IMG/VR virus record: IMGVR_UViG_3300050122_000033
Location: 1 to 31,293 of that record
Length of the DNA stretch: 31,293 bases
Source of the DNA: a virus
Direction: 5' to 3' (one strand)
The position numbers were made by a program, and so were the translations under genes. The notes under the pieces are model-generated. The model did not search any database and was not told the DNA's origin. It was given only the letters and a program-made list of their open reading frames with translations. How positions within the stretch are numbered: position 1 is the stretch's first letter; each line of letters starts with the position of its first letter. Shown here piece by piece: positions 4,669 through 17,854 of the stretch.

Positions 4669-4889
4669 TACAGTTTCCCACCGCTCGGGCCATTTTCACC
4701 CTTGATATACCCAATCCAGCGGACCCGGTTGAAGTTGGGGTTCTGTTGTTCGCAGAAGTCGGCCAGGGCGTAGACCAAGCGACCCCAATCTTCGGCTCTC
4801 TGAGCCAGGATTGTTCCCTGACCGTTGAGAGGTTGAAGGCCGCGCACCGAGTTCGCGAGAGCTATGAAATCCTTCTTTGACATTGCCAT
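4668..4889 (-). CDS. hypothetical phage protein, 73 aa
   Basis: Begins MAMSKKDFIALANSVRGLQP and includes DWGRLVYALADFCEQQNPNF and RVRWIGYIKGENG. This Lys-Lys-Asp-Phe start with a later LADFC..QNPNF segment is a recurrent small-protein pattern in phages, of unknown function. AAGGAG precedes ATG 4889. It is coupled to the downstream zinc-ribbon gene. Confidence 0.8.
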   Translation of the reverse strand: MAMSKKDFIALANSVRGLQPLNGQGTILAQRAEDWGRLVYALADFCEQQNPNFNRVRWIGYIKGENGPSGGKL

Positions 4890-4953
4890 GTGTTCTCCTT
4901 TTTGGCTACTGCTAGCGGCCGGTTTGCCGCTTTCGTCCGGGCCAAGGGACTCG

Positions 4954-5625
4954 TCAGGCAGCTTCTACGAACTTTCCTCCCTTCAAGGTGTAGAAGGTGT
5001 CAGCCTTGATTTTCAAGCCATCTACCTTAGCCGTTTTAGCCGTGATAAGTTTGTATTCTCCGTTAGCGTATCCCCACTCTGCCAAAGTGAGATAGCACCC
5101 GAGAGCGCCAGAAGCCTTACCTTCAACTCCGGTATTGATCGCAAATCCGTTTTTGCCGGTGTTCGTGGCCGCGCTGTAGTTGCCGGTGTTCGTGGCCGCG
5201 CTTTGGTAGCCGGTGTTCGTGGCCGCGCTGCGGTCGCCGGTGTTCGTGGCCGCGCTGTAGTTGCCGGTGTTCGTGGCCGCGCTGCGGTCGCCGGTGTTCG
5301 TGGCTGACGTTTCGAAGTCCGCTTTATCGAGGATGAATTTAACTCCTGCACCGATAAAACCGGGCAACGTGAGTTCTGCCTCGATGTGCAGGGTTTTGGC
5401 AACCCGTTTGCTGTCACTTTCGGTTTGCTTCGAAACTCCCTCGGCCTCGACTTGCGCGAACCGATTCGTTGGTCCGTAGTACGACCAAACATCAAACGGG
5501 TTTTCGCAGAAGTGGAAACCTGAAAAGCAGAGGTTCACGGTACCTTTGCGGGTGTAGGTTTTGCCGAGTTCATACTGAAAATCTCGGCACTTCAAGGTGT
5601 TGTCAAAACCTTTGAATCCGATCAT
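4954..5625 (-). CDS. DUF7666-like protein with nine-residue repeats
   Basis: 223 residues. Residues 1-100 (MIGFKGFDNTLKCRDFQYEL, then LCFSGFHFCENPFDVWSYY) fit the phage family I know as DUF7666, with a GFHFCENP signature. Residues about 107-158 are tandem nine-residue units of the type SAATNTGDR/NY/YQ, encoded by 27-nt repeats. The C-terminal 60 residues form a small beta domain. The function of the family is unknown; the Ala/Thr/Asn/Gly repeats probably build a regular beta stack. GGAGG precedes ATG 5625, and a structured leader and an operator lie upstream. Confidence 0.85.
   Translation of the reverse strand: MIGFKGFDNTLKCRDFQYELGKTYTRKGTVNLCFSGFHFCENPFDVWSYYGPTNRFAQVEAEGVSKQTESDSKRVAKTLHIEAELTLPGFIGAGVKFILDKADFETSATNTGDRSAATNTGNYSAATNTGDRSAATNTGYQSAATNTGNYSAATNTGKNGFAINTGVEGKASGALGCYLTLAEWGYANGEYKLITAKTAKVDGLKIKADTFYTLKGGKFVEAA
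5152..5307. repeat. 27-nt coding tandem repeat
   Basis: About six copies of a 27-nt unit containing ggtgttcgtggccgcgct with variable last bases, all in frame in the DUF7666-like gene. Copies differ mainly in codons 8-9 of the unit, so expansion and contraction is likely. Confidence 0.9.
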
Positions 5626-6660: not shown

Positions 6661-6830
6661 TACGAATTTTGCGCAACGATCTGAGCCAATACTACGCCGT
6701 TCCGGGCAGCCTTGTACTCATCATAAACCTTTTCAGCAGCGGCTTTCTTGACAAAATACCGCACGACAGGTTCATATTCATCGTTTTCCACTACGACCCA
6801 TTGGGCCGGTTCGGCGTCGTCGATTCTCAT
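6660..6830 (-). CDS. hypothetical protein, 56 aa
   Basis: ATG 6830 lies behind CGGAGGAG at good spacing. Begins MRIDDAEPAQWVVVENDEYE and continues as a basic helical segment (YFVKKAAAEKVYDEYKAARN). The first half is a beta hairpin and the second a helix; small phage proteins of this make-up are common. Its TAA abuts the operator at 6646-6660. Function unknown. Confidence 0.7.
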   Translation of the reverse strand: MRIDDAEPAQWVVVENDEYEPVVRYFVKKAAAEKVYDEYKAARNGVVLAQIVAQNS

Positions 6831-6905
6831 AACTCCTCCGCTCTCCCTTGTTCTCTCATTCCAGACTTGAGACTGGACATAGGCAGGTTACGGCCCTAGG
6901 CCGGT

Positions 6906-7229
6906 TTAGTCTTCATCCTCCGATTCTTCGTCGCCGGGGCATTCCTCGCAGCACTTCGAGTGCTCGTCCCGGTGCGCTTCGTTTTCGGCGTCCACGGCTT
7001 CATCGCCGGAGTAGTTTGTGCCGCACGCGGGGCAATCCCATTCATATGGCGGGTCGATCTCATGCCCGCATTCGTCGCAGTACAGTCCCTCGTTTCCGGC
7101 ATATTCCCCGGCAGAGTACGCACAGAGCGCGTCCGAAGCCGGTAGTCCCTCTTTCTCTCCACACTTCCGGCAGAGAATCCCGCCGTCCGTGGTGTACGCT
7201 ACGACTGTTAGCTGTTCGATTGAAAGCAT
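6906..7229 (-). CDS. multi-CxxC zinc protein, 107 aa
   Basis: The start at ATG 7229 (GAGGAACC upstream) gives MLSIEQLTVVAYTTDGGILC. Three or four CxxC knuckles follow: LCRKCGEK, LYCDECGHEI, WDCPACGTN and CCEEC, with spacing of rubredoxin- or zinc-ribbon-like folds. The C-terminal tail is very acidic (GDEESEDED). Likely binds two zinc ions; possibly a transcription or antirestriction modulator, but nothing direct supports that. Promoter-like TTGACA lies at 7287-7282. Confidence 0.8.
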   Translation of the reverse strand: MLSIEQLTVVAYTTDGGILCRKCGEKEGLPASDALCAYSAGEYAGNEGLYCDECGHEIDPPYEWDCPACGTNYSGDEAVDAENEAHRDEHSKCCEECPGDEESEDED

Positions 7230-7258: not shown

Positions 7259-7287
7259 ATACTGCGCCGTGAGGATTCAACTGTCAA
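7259..7287 (-). promoter_or_regulatory. possible promoter with weak -10
   Basis: TTGACA (7287-7282) is perfect, but the 17-bp-spaced -10 is only CAGTAT; TATTAA stands at a 20-bp spacing. TTTTCCACA (7314-7306) lies 18 bp upstream, as in two other early promoters, and the 10-mer GCGCCGTGAG overlaps the spacer. Confidence 0.4.
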
Positions 7288-7314: not shown

Positions 7315-7407
7315 CTAGACAATGTTCGCTCGCCAGTTGCCTCGTGGCGATAGGTTGAAATAATGCTCTTGCCCCGGAAAGTATGGATTGACAACTTTGC
7401 TGTGCAT
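7315..7407 (-). CDS. 30-residue small peptide
   Basis: ATG 7407 follows GGAAAGGATC and covarying RNA motif copy A. It encodes 30 residues (MHSKVVNPYFPGQEHYFNLS, then PRGNWRANIV). The pattern resembles the ends of larger phage proteins. The clear leader and ribosome binding site argue that it is translated. Function unknown; it could also be a regulatory uORF. Confidence 0.55.
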   Translation of the reverse strand: MHSKVVNPYFPGQEHYFNLSPRGNWRANIV

Positions 7408-7421
7408 TTTTGATCCTTTCC

Positions 7422-7482
7422 GCTCTCTTGCCATAGCCTTAGCTACTGAGAGCCTTTCCTGTGTTCCGGTCATACGGGCCGG
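7422..7482 (-). ncRNA. covarying leader RNA motif, copy A
   Basis: On the minus strand: a CCGG hairpin, ACAGGAA, stem P2 GCTCTC/GAGAGC, an AG linker, stem P3 TAGC-taag-GCTA, then TGGCAA before P2 closes. Copies B (7857-7920) and C (8423-8487) keep the unpaired bases but change the stem pairs together. About ten bases separate it from the ribosome binding site. Confidence 0.65.
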
Positions 7483-7488
7483 TACGTT

Positions 7489-7503
7489 GTCTGAATAATG
7501 GAC
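7489..7503 (+). promoter_or_regulatory. dispersed operator site 8
   Basis: GTCTGAATAATGGAC, sharing a base with the TAG of the 112-residue gene and just ahead of RNA motif A. Confidence 0.7.
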
Positions 7504-7841
7504 TATGCTTTGAAGTGATTGATAATCAAAGGCTTGCCGTCCGCTTCAAAACTCGGCCCCGGCATCCACGGCAACTGCCCAAAGTAAAGGACGTTGCGTT
7601 CCCCGTGTGTGGATGGCTCAAGCTGCACGGTCGCAACAGGATACAGGCAGCATTCGCCGTTTGATGCGTTCTGACGTTTGACCCAGATGTGAAAGTCTTT
7701 CGTGCCGGTAGTATCGAAGCCCCGCAAATTGCCCGCCTTGTAGAACGATTTTACTCCCGCCGCGTCCAGCTCCCGCTGAATTTTGTGTAATTCGCGGTAG
7801 ACAATCTGGTATTCTCGTTCCTCGCTCAATCCCGCTCCCAT
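7503..7841 (-). CDS. hypothetical protein, 112 aa
   Basis: Begins MGAGLSEEREYQIVYRELHK with an N-terminal helix of about 35 residues, then a beta-rich part (KDFHIWVKRQNASNGECCLY and VQLEPSTHGERNVLYFGQLP). AAAGGGG precedes the ATG. It is preceded by RNA motif copy B, and its TAG shares a base with the operator at 7489-7503. No family recognised. Confidence 0.75.
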   Translation of the reverse strand: MGAGLSEEREYQIVYRELHKIQRELDAAGVKSFYKAGNLRGFDTTGTKDFHIWVKRQNASNGECCLYPVATVQLEPSTHGERNVLYFGQLPWMPGPSFEADGKPLIINHFKA

Positions 7842-7856
7842 GTTTTGCCCCTTTCT

Positions 7857-7920
7857 TGACTCTTGCCAGCACTATCCGTGCCTGAGTCACGTTCCTGTTT
7901 GGCCGGTAACGTATCCGGCC
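7857..7920 (-). ncRNA. covarying leader RNA motif, copy B
   Basis: Minus strand: GGCCGG/CCGGCC hairpin, ACAGGAA, P2 TGACTC/GAGTCA, AG, P3 GCAC-ggata-GTGC, TGGCAA. P2 and P3 differ from copies A and C at nearly every pair yet remain fully paired. Confidence 0.65.
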
Positions 7921-7931
7921 CCGGTAAAGTG

Positions 7932-8183
7932 CTAGCTGGACGAGGTTACAGTTTGAGAGTAGAAGTGAATTCGCCCGGTGAGGATACGAATTCGCGACCT
8001 TGCGCGGATTACCCTTGCGTTAGTCTCTGCGTATTCGACCGCCGTCTCAGCCCACTCCCGGCCCGATTCTGCCGTTTGGAGTCTGCCCTCGGCGTCCGAT
8101 TGTTCCAAGAGGGCCACTCTCAAGAGGCGCTGCTCTTTTTCCAGTTCATGCCACGCTGCAATTGCTTTCTCAGTTTCCGGCAT
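7932..8183 (-). CDS. coiled-coil hypothetical protein, 83 aa
   Basis: Begins MPETEKAIAAWHELEKEQRL and is almost wholly a Glu/Ala/Leu/Arg helix to residue 65, then LTGRIHFYSQTVTSSS. Heptad-like hydrophobics suggest an oligomeric coiled coil. AAGGGAATT precedes the ATG. The leader has a copy of the 10-mer GCGCCGTAAG at 8199-8208. Function unknown. Confidence 0.7.
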   Translation of the reverse strand: MPETEKAIAAWHELEKEQRLLRVALLEQSDAEGRLQTAESGREWAETAVEYAETNARVIRARSRIRILTGRIHFYSQTVTSSS

Positions 8184-8220
8184 AATTCCCTTTCGACTGC
8201 GCCGTAAGGCTGTTTGGTTT

Positions 8221-8235
8221 GTCCATTATTCAGAC
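8221..8235 (-). promoter_or_regulatory. dispersed operator site 9
   Basis: GTCCATTATTCAGAC, sharing a base with the TAG of the 57-residue gene. Confidence 0.7.
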
Positions 8236-8408
8236 TAGTATCCGAGAAAAGCCCGGACCACTTTCAAACTCGGACGCATCCGAATCCAGTCCTCATGCAC
8301 GTACCCTGCCACGTCCTGATAGCAGGCGAGCGCGAAAATGTATCCACCGCGCATATAGGCTTTAACACCGTGTTCCGCCAACATTTGAACCAGTTGAATG
8401 TGTACCAT
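8235..8408 (-). CDS. hypothetical protein, 57 aa
   Basis: Start ATG 8408 (MVHIQLVQMLAEHGVKAYMR), chosen because AGAGGAAAC precedes it and RNA motif copy C ends just upstream; the frame is open to 8435 but that start lacks a ribosome binding site. A helix followed by beta strands (GGYIFALACYQDVAGYVHED). The TAG shares a base with the operator at 8221-8235. Unknown function. Confidence 0.7.
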   Translation of the reverse strand: MVHIQLVQMLAEHGVKAYMRGGYIFALACYQDVAGYVHEDWIRMRPSLKVVRAFLGY

Positions 8409-8422
8409 GTTTCCTCTTTTCT

Positions 8423-8487
8423 GCGCTCTTGCCACGTCCTTAGACGCTGTGCGCCGTTACTGTATGCCCGGTAACCGTCCGGACCGG
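8423..8487 (-). ncRNA. covarying leader RNA motif, copy C
   Basis: Minus strand: CCGG/CCGG hairpin, ACAGTAA, P2 GCGCAC/GAGCGC (one A-A mismatch), AG, P3 CGTC-taag-GACG, TGGCAA. Same order and spacing as A and B. Confidence 0.6.
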
Positions 8488-10109: not shown

Positions 10110-10141
10110 TTTTCATTCTCCCTGCCGCTGGTAGCGGCTCA

Positions 10142-10159
10142 CCCGGATAACGCTCCGGG
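10142..10159 (-). other. leader hairpin with CCGG stem
   Basis: CCCGG/CCGGG stem around an eight-base loop containing CGTT on the minus strand, followed by a second hairpin GCCGCT/AGCGGC just before the ribosome binding site. Confidence 0.5.
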
Positions 10160-10167
10160 CTAGCGGT

Positions 10168-14856: not shown

Positions 14857-14934
14857 GCGAGTATAGCCCACGTTGGAAGAGGCGTCTGGCTTAAACCCAG
14901 TTCAGGGCCGGTTCGACACCGGTTACTCGCACCA
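14857..14934 (+). tRNA. tRNA with anticodon TAA (Leu?)
   Basis: Acceptor GCGAGTA/TACTCGC, encoded CCA, T loop TTCGACA. The anticodon loop CTTAAAC gives TAA (14892-14894). The variable loop is only five bases (tcagg), whereas bacterial tRNA-Leu has a long variable arm, so the amino acid is uncertain. Confidence 0.8.
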
Positions 14935-14935
14935 C

Positions 14936-15010
14936 GGTCAGGAACCTAATCGGCTAAGGGACTGTTTGCAAAACAGTTGTTGGGGCGTTCGACTCGCCTC
15001 CTGACCTCCA
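14936..15010 (+). tRNA. tRNA-Cys (GCA)
   Basis: Acceptor GGTCAGG/CCTGACC, T73, encoded CCA; anticodon stem ACTGT/ACAGT with loop TTGCAAA, anticodon 14968-14970. Confidence 0.92.
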
Positions 15011-15023
15011 AGTTTAGTTTTAT

Positions 15024-15100
15024 GGGCGACTAGGAAAACTGGCAAATCCATCTGACTTAGAATCAGACTTTTCGGGGTTCGACTCCCCGGTCGCCTACCA
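15024..15100 (+). tRNA. tRNA with anticodon TAG (Leu?)
   Basis: Acceptor GGGCGAC/GTCGCCT with one G-T pair; stem TCTGA/TCAGA, loop CTTAGAA, anticodon 15058-15060; T arm CGGGG/CCCCG. Short variable loop (ctttt), unlike standard tRNA-Leu. Confidence 0.8.
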
Positions 15101-15106
15101 AGTTTT

Positions 15107-15189
15107 GCCGATGTGGCGTAATTGGAAGCCGCGCTGGATTCAAATCCCAGTCCTTCGGGGTGCCGGTTCGATTCCGGCCATCGGCACCA
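15107..15189 (+). tRNA. tRNA-Leu (CAA)
   Basis: Acceptor GCCGATG/CATCGGC, loop TTCAAAT, anticodon 15141-15143, variable arm with a small hairpin (tccttcgggg) as expected for Leu, T arm GCCGG/CCGGC, CCA encoded. Confidence 0.88.
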
Positions 15190-15193
15190 AGTT

Positions 15194-15253
15194 CTACGGA
15201 GCACGGGCAGGGGTTAACACCTGAACCCGGGTTGTCCTACTAGTGGACCGTAC
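15194..15253 (+). other. tRNA-like hairpin remnant, unresolved
   Basis: Begins TACGG and ends CCGTACCA, with an inner hairpin CGGGCAGG/CCTGaaCCCG and a GTCC/GGAC arm. It lacks a normal T loop and D arm. It may be a decayed tRNA or a structured spacer. Confidence 0.25.
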
Positions 15254-15266
15254 CATACCTTTTTAC

Positions 15267-15353
15267 GGAAGCGTGCCTCAATGGTACAGGACGGCTCTGC
15301 TAAGGCCGCAAGACCGAAAGGTTGTGAACGTTCAAGTCGTTCCGCTTCCGCCA
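15267..15353 (+). tRNA. tRNA-Ser (GCT)
   Basis: Acceptor GGAAGCG/CGCTTCC, G73, CCA; anticodon loop CTGCTAA (anticodon 15299-15301); long variable arm; T arm GAACG/CGTTC. Confidence 0.92.
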
Positions 15354-15491
15354 ATTGTCCCTCAACGGGCGTCCACCCGAAAGTCTCAGTTGAATCGGGA
15401 TGGTCATTAGAACTGAGGTCGGCGCTGCTTTGAGAACCCGGCAGCAGACATAGCCGTGGTCCCTTATTAGGACAAGGGGTCTCACAGTTTT
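15354..15491 (+). other. structured spacer in the tRNA array
   Basis: No tRNA with CCA end found. Contains perfect ctcagtt/aactgag pairing around a 19-base loop, gctgc/gcagc pairing, and a ggtccctt/aaggggtct hairpin. Perhaps a processing spacer, a decayed tRNA pair or a small RNA. Confidence 0.35.
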
Positions 15492-15578
15492 GGATCGTCC
15501 TGCCGACGTTTCGGCGACTCGTCCTGAAAACGAGTGCTCCTGAAAAGGATGAGAGTTGAACCCTCTGGCGATCCTCCA
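15492..15578 (+). tRNA. tRNA-Ser (TGA), C33
   Basis: Acceptor GGATCGT/GCGATCC, T73, CCA; stem CTCGT/ACGAG, loop CCTGAAA, anticodon 15535-15537; long variable arm. Position 33 is C where T is nearly universal. Confidence 0.85.
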
Positions 15579-15582
15579 TTTT

Positions 15583-15666
15583 GCGCGTAGCGGACGATGG
15601 CGTCCATCTGGCCGTAACCCAGCCGCTCTAAGAGCATCGGGAGTTCAATTCTCTCTGCGCGCACCA
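15583..15666 (+). tRNA. tRNA-Tyr (GTA), C33
   Basis: Acceptor GCGCGTA/TGCGCGC, A73, CCA; loop CCGTAAC, anticodon 15614-15616; long variable arm as normal for bacterial Tyr. Position 33 is C. Confidence 0.85.
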
Positions 15667-15844
15667 TTTTATAGAACCAGAAAGGCGAGATGCCGCACGA
15701 TGTGTACTTGTTTGGGTTTAGCCCCGACTGGTGGCTTCTCAGGGCCCCCAATATCATTTTGCAATGGGGATAGTGGCGGTAGTTTGCTTGGCGTTTTGTT
15801 TTGACTCCTGGCTAATGCTTCGCCGGATTTACAAAAAGTTTTAG
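15667..15844 (+). other. spacer between tRNA genes
   Basis: Apart from the possible 27-codon ORF at 15690-15773 nothing is recognised; no tRNA with an encoded CCA and T loop was found here. Confidence 0.4.
15690..15773 (+). CDS. possible 27-residue peptide
   Basis: ATG 15690 follows AAAGGCGAG and encodes MPHDVYLFGFSPDWWLLRAP, then NIILQWG. Aromatic-rich. Its only support is the ribosome binding site and its place in an otherwise unexplained gap. Confidence 0.3.
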   Translation: MPHDVYLFGFSPDWWLLRAPNIILQWG

Positions 15845-15921
15845 ACGGGGGTCCGTTGGTATGGCCTGAGCGCTCATAACGCTTCAGGAATAGCGCGGTT
15901 CGAATCCGCCTCCCCGAACCA
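15845..15921 (+). tRNA. tRNA-Met/Ile2 (CAT)
   Basis: Anticodon loop CTCATAA (anticodon 15875-15877), T arm GCGG/CCGC with loop TTCGAAT, CCA encoded. Pairs 2-7 of the acceptor match (CGGGGG/TCCCCG); position 1-72 is an A-A mismatch, a feature reminiscent of initiators. Elongator Met, initiator or lysidine-Ile cannot be separated. Confidence 0.82.
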
Positions 15922-15925
15922 ATTC

Positions 15926-16000
15926 GGTCACGTAGTCTAATGATAAGACGCCTCCCTGTCGAGGAGTACGATGCGAGTTTGAGTCTCGTCGTGACCGCCA
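15926..16000 (+). tRNA. tRNA-Asp (GTC)
   Basis: Acceptor GGTCACG/CGTGACC, G73, CCA; loop CTGTCGA, anticodon 15958-15960; T loop TTTGAGT is slightly unusual. Confidence 0.9.
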
Positions 16001-16001
16001 C

Positions 16002-16075
16002 CGCCTCGTCGTCTAGGGACAGGACACTACCCTTTCAAGGTATGAACGCGGGTTTGATTCCCGTCGAGGCGACCA
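16002..16075 (+). tRNA. tRNA-Glu (TTC)
   Basis: Acceptor CGCCTCG/CGAGGCG, A73, CCA; stem CTACC/GGTAT, loop CTTTCAA, anticodon 16034-16036; T arm normal. Confidence 0.9.
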
Positions 16076-16089
16076 AGTTGTTCAATTGA

Positions 16090-16155
16090 TGGCAGATACG
16101 CTAAGTAGGCAAGCGGTTGCACTGTATAGGGGTTCGAGGCCCCTTCTGCCAGCCA
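16090..16155 (+). pseudogene. tRNA-like gene lacking the anticodon arm
   Basis: Perfect acceptor TGGCAGA/TCTGCCA, G73, encoded CCA, good D arm (CGCT/AGCG) and T arm GGGG/CCCC with TTCGAGG. Between them are only 13 bases, so no anticodon stem can form (66 nt in total). The part from CTGTAT to CCA closely matches the tRNA-Gln(TTG) at 16989-17078, suggesting a deleted paralogue, or a tRNA mimic. Confidence 0.6.
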
Positions 16156-16163
16156 GTTTAAGT

Positions 16164-16240
16164 TGGGCCTTCGCCTAGTAGGTATGGCACTTCGCTCTGA
16201 ACGAAGACAAGGGTTGGTTCGAGACCAACAGGCCCAGCCA
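16164..16240 (+). tRNA. tRNA-Gln (CTG)
   Basis: Acceptor TGGGCCT/AGGCCCA, G73, CCA; stem CTTCG/CGAAG, loop CTCTGAA, anticodon 16197-16199; T arm GTTGG/CCAAC. Confidence 0.92.
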
Positions 16241-16258
16241 AGTTTTGGGGGTATATTC

Positions 16259-17011
16259 GTGGTCAAAGCACGATCTAAGAGAAGTCCAATATGGAGGATG
16301 TCGCAACCTGAATTTGAAAAACTGGTTGCTGGAAGTACAAGTGGAAAAGAGATTCTCGATTTCTTTGGTCTAAGAAGGGCTGGAGATAATTGGAGCACCG
16401 TGAAAAGGAGGTGTGAGGAGCAAGGAATAAGCCTAGCGCATTTTAACGGAAAAGAACGTCAAGACGAAGCCAGAAAGAAAATAAGAATTCCGACGGAGGA
16501 GATATTTGTTGAAAAATCTTCATACCCAAGACAACTGGCTAGAACTAGAATTCTGAAAGAAAGTCTTCTCGAATACAAATGTGCTGTTTGTGGTATGCTC
16601 CCTGAGTGGCACGAGAAAGCTTTGGTATTGATTCTCGACCACGAAAATGGAATCTACAATGACCATCGTTTGAGCAATTTAAGATTTGTTTGCCCCAACT
16701 GCAACAGTCAACTTTCTACTTTTGCTGGGCGAAACGTGAGACACAGAGCCGAGCGTAGAAATTGTTTAGATTGCGGTAAAAAAGTATCAGGAAAAAGCGA
16801 ACGTTGCCGCGAATGCTCCGGCAAAAACGTGGAAAGAGGCCGCAAGCTTCGGAAGATAGAATGGCCCTCTTTACAAGAATTAGAGAAAGAAACGACAGAA
16901 ACAAATTTCTGTGCTGTTGGTCGTCGTCTAGGTGTCAGTGATAATGCAGTTCGAAAAATGATGAAAAGAATGAAGGAAAGAATTTTAACGGGAGATCGCC
17001 TAAGTAGGTAA
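16259..17011 (+). CDS. HNH homing-type endonuclease in tRNA array
   Basis: GTG 16259 is the likely start (the first good one after the tRNA), giving 250 residues; the start is not certain. HNH core: YKCAVCGMLPEWHE (CxxC 108-111), ILDHENGIYNDHRLSNLRFV with Asp127-His128 and Asn140, then CPNCNSQ (145-148). A second zinc knuckle follows (NCLDCGKK and RCRECSGK) and a C-terminal HTH-like segment (VGRRLGVSDNAVRKMMKRM). Base composition is clearly more AT-rich than its neighbours, pointing to recent arrival. It sits between two tRNA-Gln genes, and its last 23 bases overlap the tRNA-Gln(TTG) gene. Confidence 0.88.
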   Translation: MVKARSKRSPIWRMSQPEFEKLVAGSTSGKEILDFFGLRRAGDNWSTVKRRCEEQGISLAHFNGKERQDEARKKIRIPTEEIFVEKSSYPRQLARTRILKESLLEYKCAVCGMLPEWHEKALVLILDHENGIYNDHRLSNLRFVCPNCNSQLSTFAGRNVRHRAERRNCLDCGKKVSGKSERCRECSGKNVERGRKLRKIEWPSLQELEKETTETNFCAVGRRLGVSDNAVRKMMKRMKERILTGDRLSR

Positions 17012-17078
17012 GGCACCGGACTTTGACTCCGGCAAGAAGAAATTCTGTATGGGGGTTCGAGGCCCTCTCTCCCAGCCA
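16989..17078 (+). tRNA. tRNA with anticodon TTG (Gln?), long variable arm
   Basis: Acceptor CGGGAGA/TCTCCCA with a C1-A72 mismatch, G73, CCA; stem CCGGA/TCCGG, loop CTTTGAC, anticodon 17023-17025. The variable region is 18 bases with an AGAA/TTCT stem, which is abnormal for Gln. Its 5' part overlaps the end of the HNH gene. Confidence 0.8.
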
Positions 17079-17083
17079 ACTTC

Positions 17084-17098
17084 GTCCAGATAATGGAC
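17084..17098 (+). promoter_or_regulatory. dispersed operator site 13
   Basis: GTCCAGATAATGGAC directly behind the tRNA-Gln(TTG) gene; no promoter seen. Confidence 0.8.
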
Positions 17099-17145
17099 TA
17101 TGTATAGGTCCATATCGTGGGTTAAGGTGCCATACAGGGGGTTTT

Positions 17146-17220
17146 GCCTGATTAGCTTAGTTGTTAGAGCGTTGGATTCGTATCCCAAATACCGGAGTTA
17201 GATTCTCCGATCAGGCCCCA
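17146..17220 (+). tRNA. tRNA-Thr (CGT)
   Basis: Acceptor GCCTGAT/ATCAGGC, C73, CCA; loop TTCGTAT, anticodon 17179-17181; T arm CGGAG/CTCCG. Confidence 0.88.
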
Positions 17221-17300
17221 AGGCTCGGTCCTCTTGATACCCGGCGAGAGGGGGCTAGGTCAACCCCGAGATTGTTCTAGCCTCTGGCCGTTCGGGACAA
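17221..17300 (+). other. structured spacer between tRNA-Thr genes
   Basis: Forms a hairpin from ggctag and ctagcc with flanking agagg/cctct pairing. It resembles neither a tRNA nor a T-tailed terminator. Confidence 0.3.
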
Positions 17301-17376
17301 GGTGGTTAATCATTGCTGCTGATGAGCGTCCTCGGTAAGGACGAATAACGGAGTTGAAATCTCCGAACCACCTCCA
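17301..17376 (+). tRNA. tRNA-Thr (GGT), C33
   Basis: Acceptor GGTGGTT/AACCACC, T73, CCA; stem CGTCC/GGACG, loop TCGGTAA, anticodon 17334-17336. Position 33 is C, and the D loop (TGCTGCTG) lacks the usual GG. Confidence 0.85.
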
Positions 17377-17396
17377 AAGTTTTTCTGAAATAAATG

Positions 17397-17425
17397 TTGA
17401 CAAACTGAGATTCGTGTGGTATACT
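17397..17425 (+). promoter_or_regulatory. strong sigma70-type promoter
   Basis: TTGACA (17397-17402), 17-bp spacer ending GTGTGG, TATACT (17420-17425). No operator copy follows it, unlike the promoter at 14569. Confidence 0.85.
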
Positions 17426-17442
17426 GTTTTTGAGGTCGAGAA

Positions 17443-17778
17443 ATGACAATCGAAGAGAGTAGAAAACATTACACCGAGTATCTCGATCAGAAATATTCCA
17501 AATACGGAAAACCGTCTGATTTTTATTCTCTGGTCGAGCTTCCGTGTCGAGTATGTGGAAATCCAGCAGTAGCAGTAGCAGTGGCTAACGCTGACGGATC
17601 ACTCCCCGAAGGGCATTCAGTAACTTTGTGTGATAAACACATGGATATCTTTGTCGAGTTTATTGAAGACCAAGAAAGATGGGAAAAGAAAACAGCTTCT
17701 ATTTTTCCTGATTCTTCTGGTTTGAAATGGGTAAGTCTTGAAGACGAGGAGCAATCTTTCTTGGCTAGTTTTGCCTAG
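17443..17778 (+). CDS. hypothetical protein, 111 aa
   Basis: Begins MTIEESRKHYTEYLDQKYSK; has CRVCGNPAVAVAV and LCDKHMDIFVEFIEDQER, so a CxxC plus Cys-x-x-His zinc site is likely (the LP-C..C-...-LC-x-x-H pattern). GAGG precedes the ATG. The TAG stop lies inside the acceptor stem of tRNA-Thr(TGT), an overlap of six bases. AT-richer than flanking genes. Function unknown. Confidence 0.8.
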   Translation: MTIEESRKHYTEYLDQKYSKYGKPSDFYSLVELPCRVCGNPAVAVAVANADGSLPEGHSVTLCDKHMDIFVEFIEDQERWEKKTASIFPDSSGLKWVSLEDEEQSFLASFA

Positions 17779-17854
17779 TTGGCTCAGCGGCGACAGCAGC
17801 AGTTCTGTAAACTGCCATTAAAACGCGGGAGTTCGAGTCTCCCACTAGGCTCCA
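17773..17854 (+). tRNA. tRNA-Thr (TGT), C33
   Basis: Acceptor GCCTAGT/ACTAGGC, T73, CCA; stem GCAGT/ACTGC, loop TCTGTAA, anticodon 17806-17808; variable loop about 11 bases; T arm GGGAG/CTCCC. Position 33 is C. It overlaps the stop of the preceding gene. Confidence 0.86.

Follow-up and report, generated by a model that had tools for sequence, protein, structure and literature searches.

The stretch of DNA analysed here (the window, 31,293 nucleotides, positions 1 to 31,293 of IMG/VR virus record IMGVR_UViG_3300050122_000033, from a phage that we call soil-type) carries three copies of a small structured RNA. Judged from how its stems covary, this RNA is almost certainly real and conserved, and it recurs in many other phages. 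Its surroundings make a new class of small self-cleaving ribozyme, one that cuts phage polycistronic mRNA, the favoured reading, at even odds.

Three RNA copies in the window

A sequence-only reading of the window had described a three-copy structured leader in front of small genes. The leader is present where that reading had placed it, on the minus strand, and the case for its fold turned out to be stronger than had been claimed. The copies and the reading frames that follow them are:

7422..7482, minus strand: copy W1; P1 CCGG/CCGG, linker ACACAGGAAAG, P2 GCTCTC/GAGAGC, AG, P3 TAGC/GCTA, TGGCAA; 67.9 bits with the core covariance model
7315..7407, minus strand: 30-codon open reading frame downstream of W1, remnant of a 94-codon gene of the relative L156
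7857..7920, minus strand: copy W2; P1 GGCCGG/CCGGCC, linker AAACAGGAACG, P2 TGACTC/GAGTCA, AG, P3 GCAC/GTGC, TGGCAA; 60.4 bits with the core covariance model
7503..7841, minus strand: 112-codon gene downstream of W2, no known family
8423..8484, minus strand: copy W3; P1 GTCCGG/CCGGGC, linker ATACAGTAACG, P2 GCGCAC/GAGCGC, AG, P3 CGTC/GACG, TGGCAA; 69.8 bits with the core covariance model
8235..8408, minus strand: 57-codon gene downstream of W3, no known family

Exactly three sites in the window have TGGCAAGAG with a ribosome binding site and ATG behind it, a combination for which 100 shuffles give an expectation of zero. The core covariance model scores W1 to W3 at 60-70 bits and never exceeds 10 bits in the rest of the window. 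Folding energy is unremarkable, the sole exception being W2 with a fold z-score of -3.7.

Several details of the sequence-only reading could be refined. Its P2 and P3 sequences stand as given, except that P2 of W3 (GCGCAC/GAGCGC) is not fully paired and contains one A.A mismatch. The CCGG hairpin is real; P1 is longer than noted in W2 and W3, at 6 bp each, and weakest in W1, at 4 bp. The genes behind the copies are small, as described, but they are not strictly adjacent, since a gene without the motif at 7932-8183 separates W3 from W2, and the "gene" behind W1 is the 30-codon remnant listed above.

Consensus fold and covariation

The RNA is about 62 bases long and is laid out as a P1 hairpin, AAACAGGAA, P2, AG, P3, UGGCRAG and P2'. 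P1 is a hairpin of 4-7 bp, its loop often made of CGG and then A/T bases, and it ends 0-1 nt before the linker, which consists of AAACAGGAA and about two further bases. P2 has about 6 bp with an invariant closing C-G pair, and is followed by AG, P3 and then UGGCAAG or UGGCGAG running into P2'. Around 20 fixed bases surround the variable stems.

Compensatory change had been proposed from the three window copies, and shuffle tests confirmed that all three stems covary strongly. Among 23 distinct sequences, 96.4% of the core pairs are standard compared with 64% in shuffles (none of 500 shuffles reached the observed value), and changes on both sides were seen at nine of the ten core pairs. Using a hand alignment, pairing was 99.2% for P1, 93.5% for P2 and 100% for P3, a result matched by none of 5000 shuffles in which whole arms were exchanged between phages. 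Small self-cleaving ribozymes, as a kind, have such compact conserved folds, with stems that covary and unpaired bases that stay fixed.

Some resemblances of the fixed sequence were set aside. A CsrA-type site (ACAGGA) was ruled out by the copies that read ACAGTAA, and an upstream open reading frame (NTG GCA AGA) was discarded on finding that its frame and start codon vary between copies. The string GCAAACAGGA recurs in helix 24 of 16S rRNA, which we take to be a coincidence.

Distribution among phages

The expectation that a covariance model would find the fold again in phage contigs was borne out by many further copies. Model and pattern searches together placed the RNA on about 20 other viral contigs from about ten phage lineages, with about 27 distinct copies and at most five per phage. 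The first pattern scan of viral contigs returned mostly chance matches, with fitting stems in L048 (a close relative of the window phage with three copies), L012/L031, L032 and L035. The core covariance model, R1, was built without L012 and L032, and scored these at 51 and 47 bits. Later scans and model searches added L155, L126/L147/L217, L247, L156, L127, L244, L135, L266, L268, L257 and L385/L392/L421; the phage of the L268 contig, G012, has five strong copies. With a second model, R2, the carriers scored 34-66 bits and other matches at most 24 bits, apart from a single bacterial match of 30.8 bits in G020, which was rejected for overlapping the start of a serine acetyltransferase-like gene. 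The scan patterns fixed unpaired letters only, plus the innermost P2 pairs in the first two scans, so that the remaining stem positions are independent evidence for the fold.

The searches of bacterial chromosomes stayed near chance. In about 85,000 species genomes, a strict pattern scan matched at 33 sites, none of them above 23.7 bits with the model. A relaxed pattern gave ten matches in 396 Acidobacteriota genomes (five in the control), none above 16.2 bits, and a model search of 297 Acidobacteriota genomes gave no convincing copy, a weak negative given that only 20 sites were scored per genome. Among isolated phages, DUF6948 relatives did not have the RNA, and blastn with two copies as queries returned chance matches only.

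The carriers are diverse, and the nearest relatives of the terminases searched differ between them. For both the window lineage and the group with the ATPase gene (see below), the nearest isolate infects Tunturiibacter, a member of the Acidobacteriota; the RNA is absent from this phage and its sister isolates (four Tunturi phages of Acidobacteriota were examined). Group I introns were found in two carrier phages, G001 (L346:14127-14306) and G014 (L370:6269-7403).

Placement between genes

The upstream gene ends close to the RNA, with its stop codon 6-25 nt ahead of P1 in 22 of the 27 copies (for L385, only the downstream side was covered). On the other side, P2' is separated by 12-32 nt from an ATG that has a ribosome binding site, in all copies but the ambiguous L266. 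The RNA thus occupies the space between two operon genes, and hardly any of it is left for a promoter. The downstream genes are unrelated to each other and comprise short genes without a known family, DUF6948, a phosphoribosyltransferase-like protein and a phage ATPase of about 511 aa. Two close relatives have a nearly identical element (W2 and L048b) in front of different genes, and one gene family that follows the RNA in L156 is preceded by a promoter-like leader in the window.

Ribozymes of known classes in similar gaps

The new RNA may be self-cutting, since the same phages carry known self-cutting RNAs in such gaps. Two candidates lie in the window:

4908..4962, minus strand: predicted hammerhead ribozyme; stems I, II and III of 5, 4 and 5 bp, with CTGACGAG, GAAA and CTA; in the gap between the stop at 4954 and the start at 4889
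6837..6894, minus strand: twister-like RNA, type P1; RF03160, 25 bits, E 6.9e-5, below the cut-off of 67.2 bits; in the gap between the stop at 6906 and the start at 6830

Twister-P5 passed the Rfam cut-off with 48 bits in L156/G009 and with 40 bits in the L048 phage, G001; in both it lies immediately behind one gene's stop codon and ahead of the next gene's ribosome binding site. A weak Twister-P5 match in G006 occupies the same kind of gap. The predicted hammerhead at 4908-4962 was the sole match of a strict scan in 15 carrier phages, for which 400 random windows gave none, and its minimum-energy fold is the hammerhead junction; Rfam Hammerhead_1 gives it only 11.6 bits, below the cut-off. 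It is complete, of type I, and overlaps the stop codon of the upstream gene. A hammerhead-like core that differs in one base (CCGATGAG ... CGAAAC) occupies 31817-31857 on the minus strand of the L127 contig (G010), with a ribosome binding site and ATG immediately after it.

One gene boundary appears to have exchanged one RNA for another. In L156 the ortholog of the W1 gene is preceded by Twister-P5, and in the window and L048 the new RNA is found there. The support for this swap is one short gene, truncated in the window, with 68% identity over 22 residues. Of the about ten carrier lineages, a single one showed ribozymes at the Rfam level, and this is also the one lineage in which the new RNA was found associated with known ribozymes. 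Pistol, hatchet and twister sister were discovered through genomic association of this type (PMC4604425; PMC6154101), and hammerheads are known from phage intergenic regions and polycistronic RNAs (PMC3088659).

Function of the new RNA

Self-cleavage is the reading that we favour, on the strength of the known ribozymes in the same gaps and of the swap at the W1 gene. P2 and P3 would be stacked on either side of an internal loop in which A or AG faces UGGCRA, with P1 and the A-rich linker packed against this stack, and the RNA would cut itself in or near the fixed unpaired bases. Cleavage would split the polycistronic message into single-gene pieces and uncouple the expression of neighbouring genes. 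In its full form, this reading has a ribozyme unrelated to the described classes, present in several unrelated tailed-phage lineages whose hosts are probably Acidobacteriota, and interchangeable with twister and hammerhead as well as occurring alongside them; we would give it an even chance. More generally, the surroundings favour an intercistronic processing element, which may be a ribozyme, over a metabolite riboswitch.

A position just upstream of the ribosome binding site suits a translational switch equally well. Cis-acting control of translation, by a small riboswitch or by a leader bound by a host protein, is the main rival and a real possibility, if short of even; the bound fold would be stabilised beside the ribosome binding site and would hinder or promote initiation at the downstream gene. 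The distance of P2' from the start codon agrees with this, aptamers typically have such fixed bases around stems that vary, and up to five copies in one phage resemble a regulon. Yet the downstream genes belong to no common pathway, and the shared pathway or transporter by which a metabolite riboswitch is recognized was not found among them. The spacing to the ribosome binding site is variable, with no conserved anti-SD pairing seen in the predicted folds, and no protein common to all carriers, sought as a trans-acting partner, emerged across the lineages. Control of translation must also accommodate a ribozyme at the equivalent place before the ortholog of the W1 gene.

Phage T7 has RNase III sites between its early genes, and an intercistronic location in operons of small genes would fit a similar processing or stability element that is cut or bound by a host nuclease. 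We consider this unlikely: RNase III requires stems longer than the 3-7 bp found here, and a nuclease site has no need of some 20 fixed unpaired bases. It is more improbable still, to the point of being nearly dismissed, that the element does not act as RNA and is instead a DNA site (a recombination boundary or operator), a coding stretch or a chance likeness. The stem sequences vary and the pairing is kept, a constraint that recognition of DNA would not impose; the reading frame of the element relative to the gene behind it is not constant among copies; and the model scores of true copies are well separated from those of chance pattern matches. These points weigh against the facts that dispersed repeats are present in phage genomes and that W1 lies, by inspection, within an open frame which continues in L048 too.

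Whatever its function, this is a well-supported RNA family missing from Rfam, with a consensus ready and about 27 distinct examples. If the favoured self-cleaving reading holds, the small self-cleaving ribozymes, of which few classes are known, would gain another, and there would be a case of different ribozyme classes replacing each other at one gene boundary, by which the purpose of phage ribozymes would become testable. If the RNA does not cleave, it would be an orphan phage translational switch that serves as a multi-gene regulon.

Other features of the window

Other elements were noticed in the window. The palindrome GTCCA-N5-TGGAC is found in both orientations near 225, 1573, 3447, 4388, 5762, 6646, 7489, 8220, 9331 and 10916, and often begins at a TAG stop. 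In L155 and L156 it is also found just ahead of the new RNA, and in G001 ahead of the twister; it is a candidate for an operator-like site or a second intercistronic hairpin. Minus-strand leaders near 7263, 8187, 8489, 8841 and 9873 share a string of the type (T/C)C(T/A)(T/C)ACGGCGCA, which is also found behind the L156 twister. The 58-nt stop-to-start gap at 10110-10167 (minus strand) has hairpins of its own, CCCGGAGCGTTATCCGGG and CCGCTACCAGCGG, matches neither the new RNA nor Rfam, and may be another unrecognised element. Tandem 27-bp repeats at 5128-5331, within the gene at 4954-5625, encode a nine-residue repeat around AATNTG, and 11 tRNA genes are clustered on the plus strand at 14857-17854.

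Comparison with known RNA families

The sequence-only reading had proposed no function for the leader and had not recognised it as a known riboswitch or ribozyme, and among the 4227 families of Rfam 15, no match over the copies rose beyond chance level, either at curated cut-offs or at E up to 10. Judged against Rfam, the family is therefore near certain to be new and without a known relative. Twister (RF02684 Twister-P5 and RF03160 twister-P1) is like it in its size of about 60 nt, in occupying the same gaps and in occurring in the same phage lineage, whereas in sequence and structure the two do not match, and the twister matches fall away from the motif copies. The hammerhead (RF00163) likewise occupies a stop-to-start gap in the window. 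In contrast, the new RNA has no CUGANGA/GAAA core and is built of two hairpin units rather than a three-way junction; a hammerhead scan (CUGANGA - stem II - GAAA - UH, with three stems) matched none of the motif copies.

The pistol ribozyme (RF02679) consists of a P1 hairpin, an A-rich linker and two stems around an internal loop, a layout that the new RNA resembles. It is unlike pistol in having no Rfam match and, by eye, no consistent pairing of the P1 loop of the sort that a pseudoknot requires. A pseudoknot between P1 loop and linker was considered and rejected, being visible by eye in W2, W3 and L048c and missing in the others. Pistol is phage-associated (PMC4604425). The manA and wcaG motifs of cyanophages differ from the new RNA in sequence and in the genes that they accompany, and it matches neither in Rfam, but they are likewise structured cis RNAs of phages (Weinberg 2010, PMC2864571). 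Small intergenic RNAs of phages are, as such, an already known kind, to which the family described here adds a new member.
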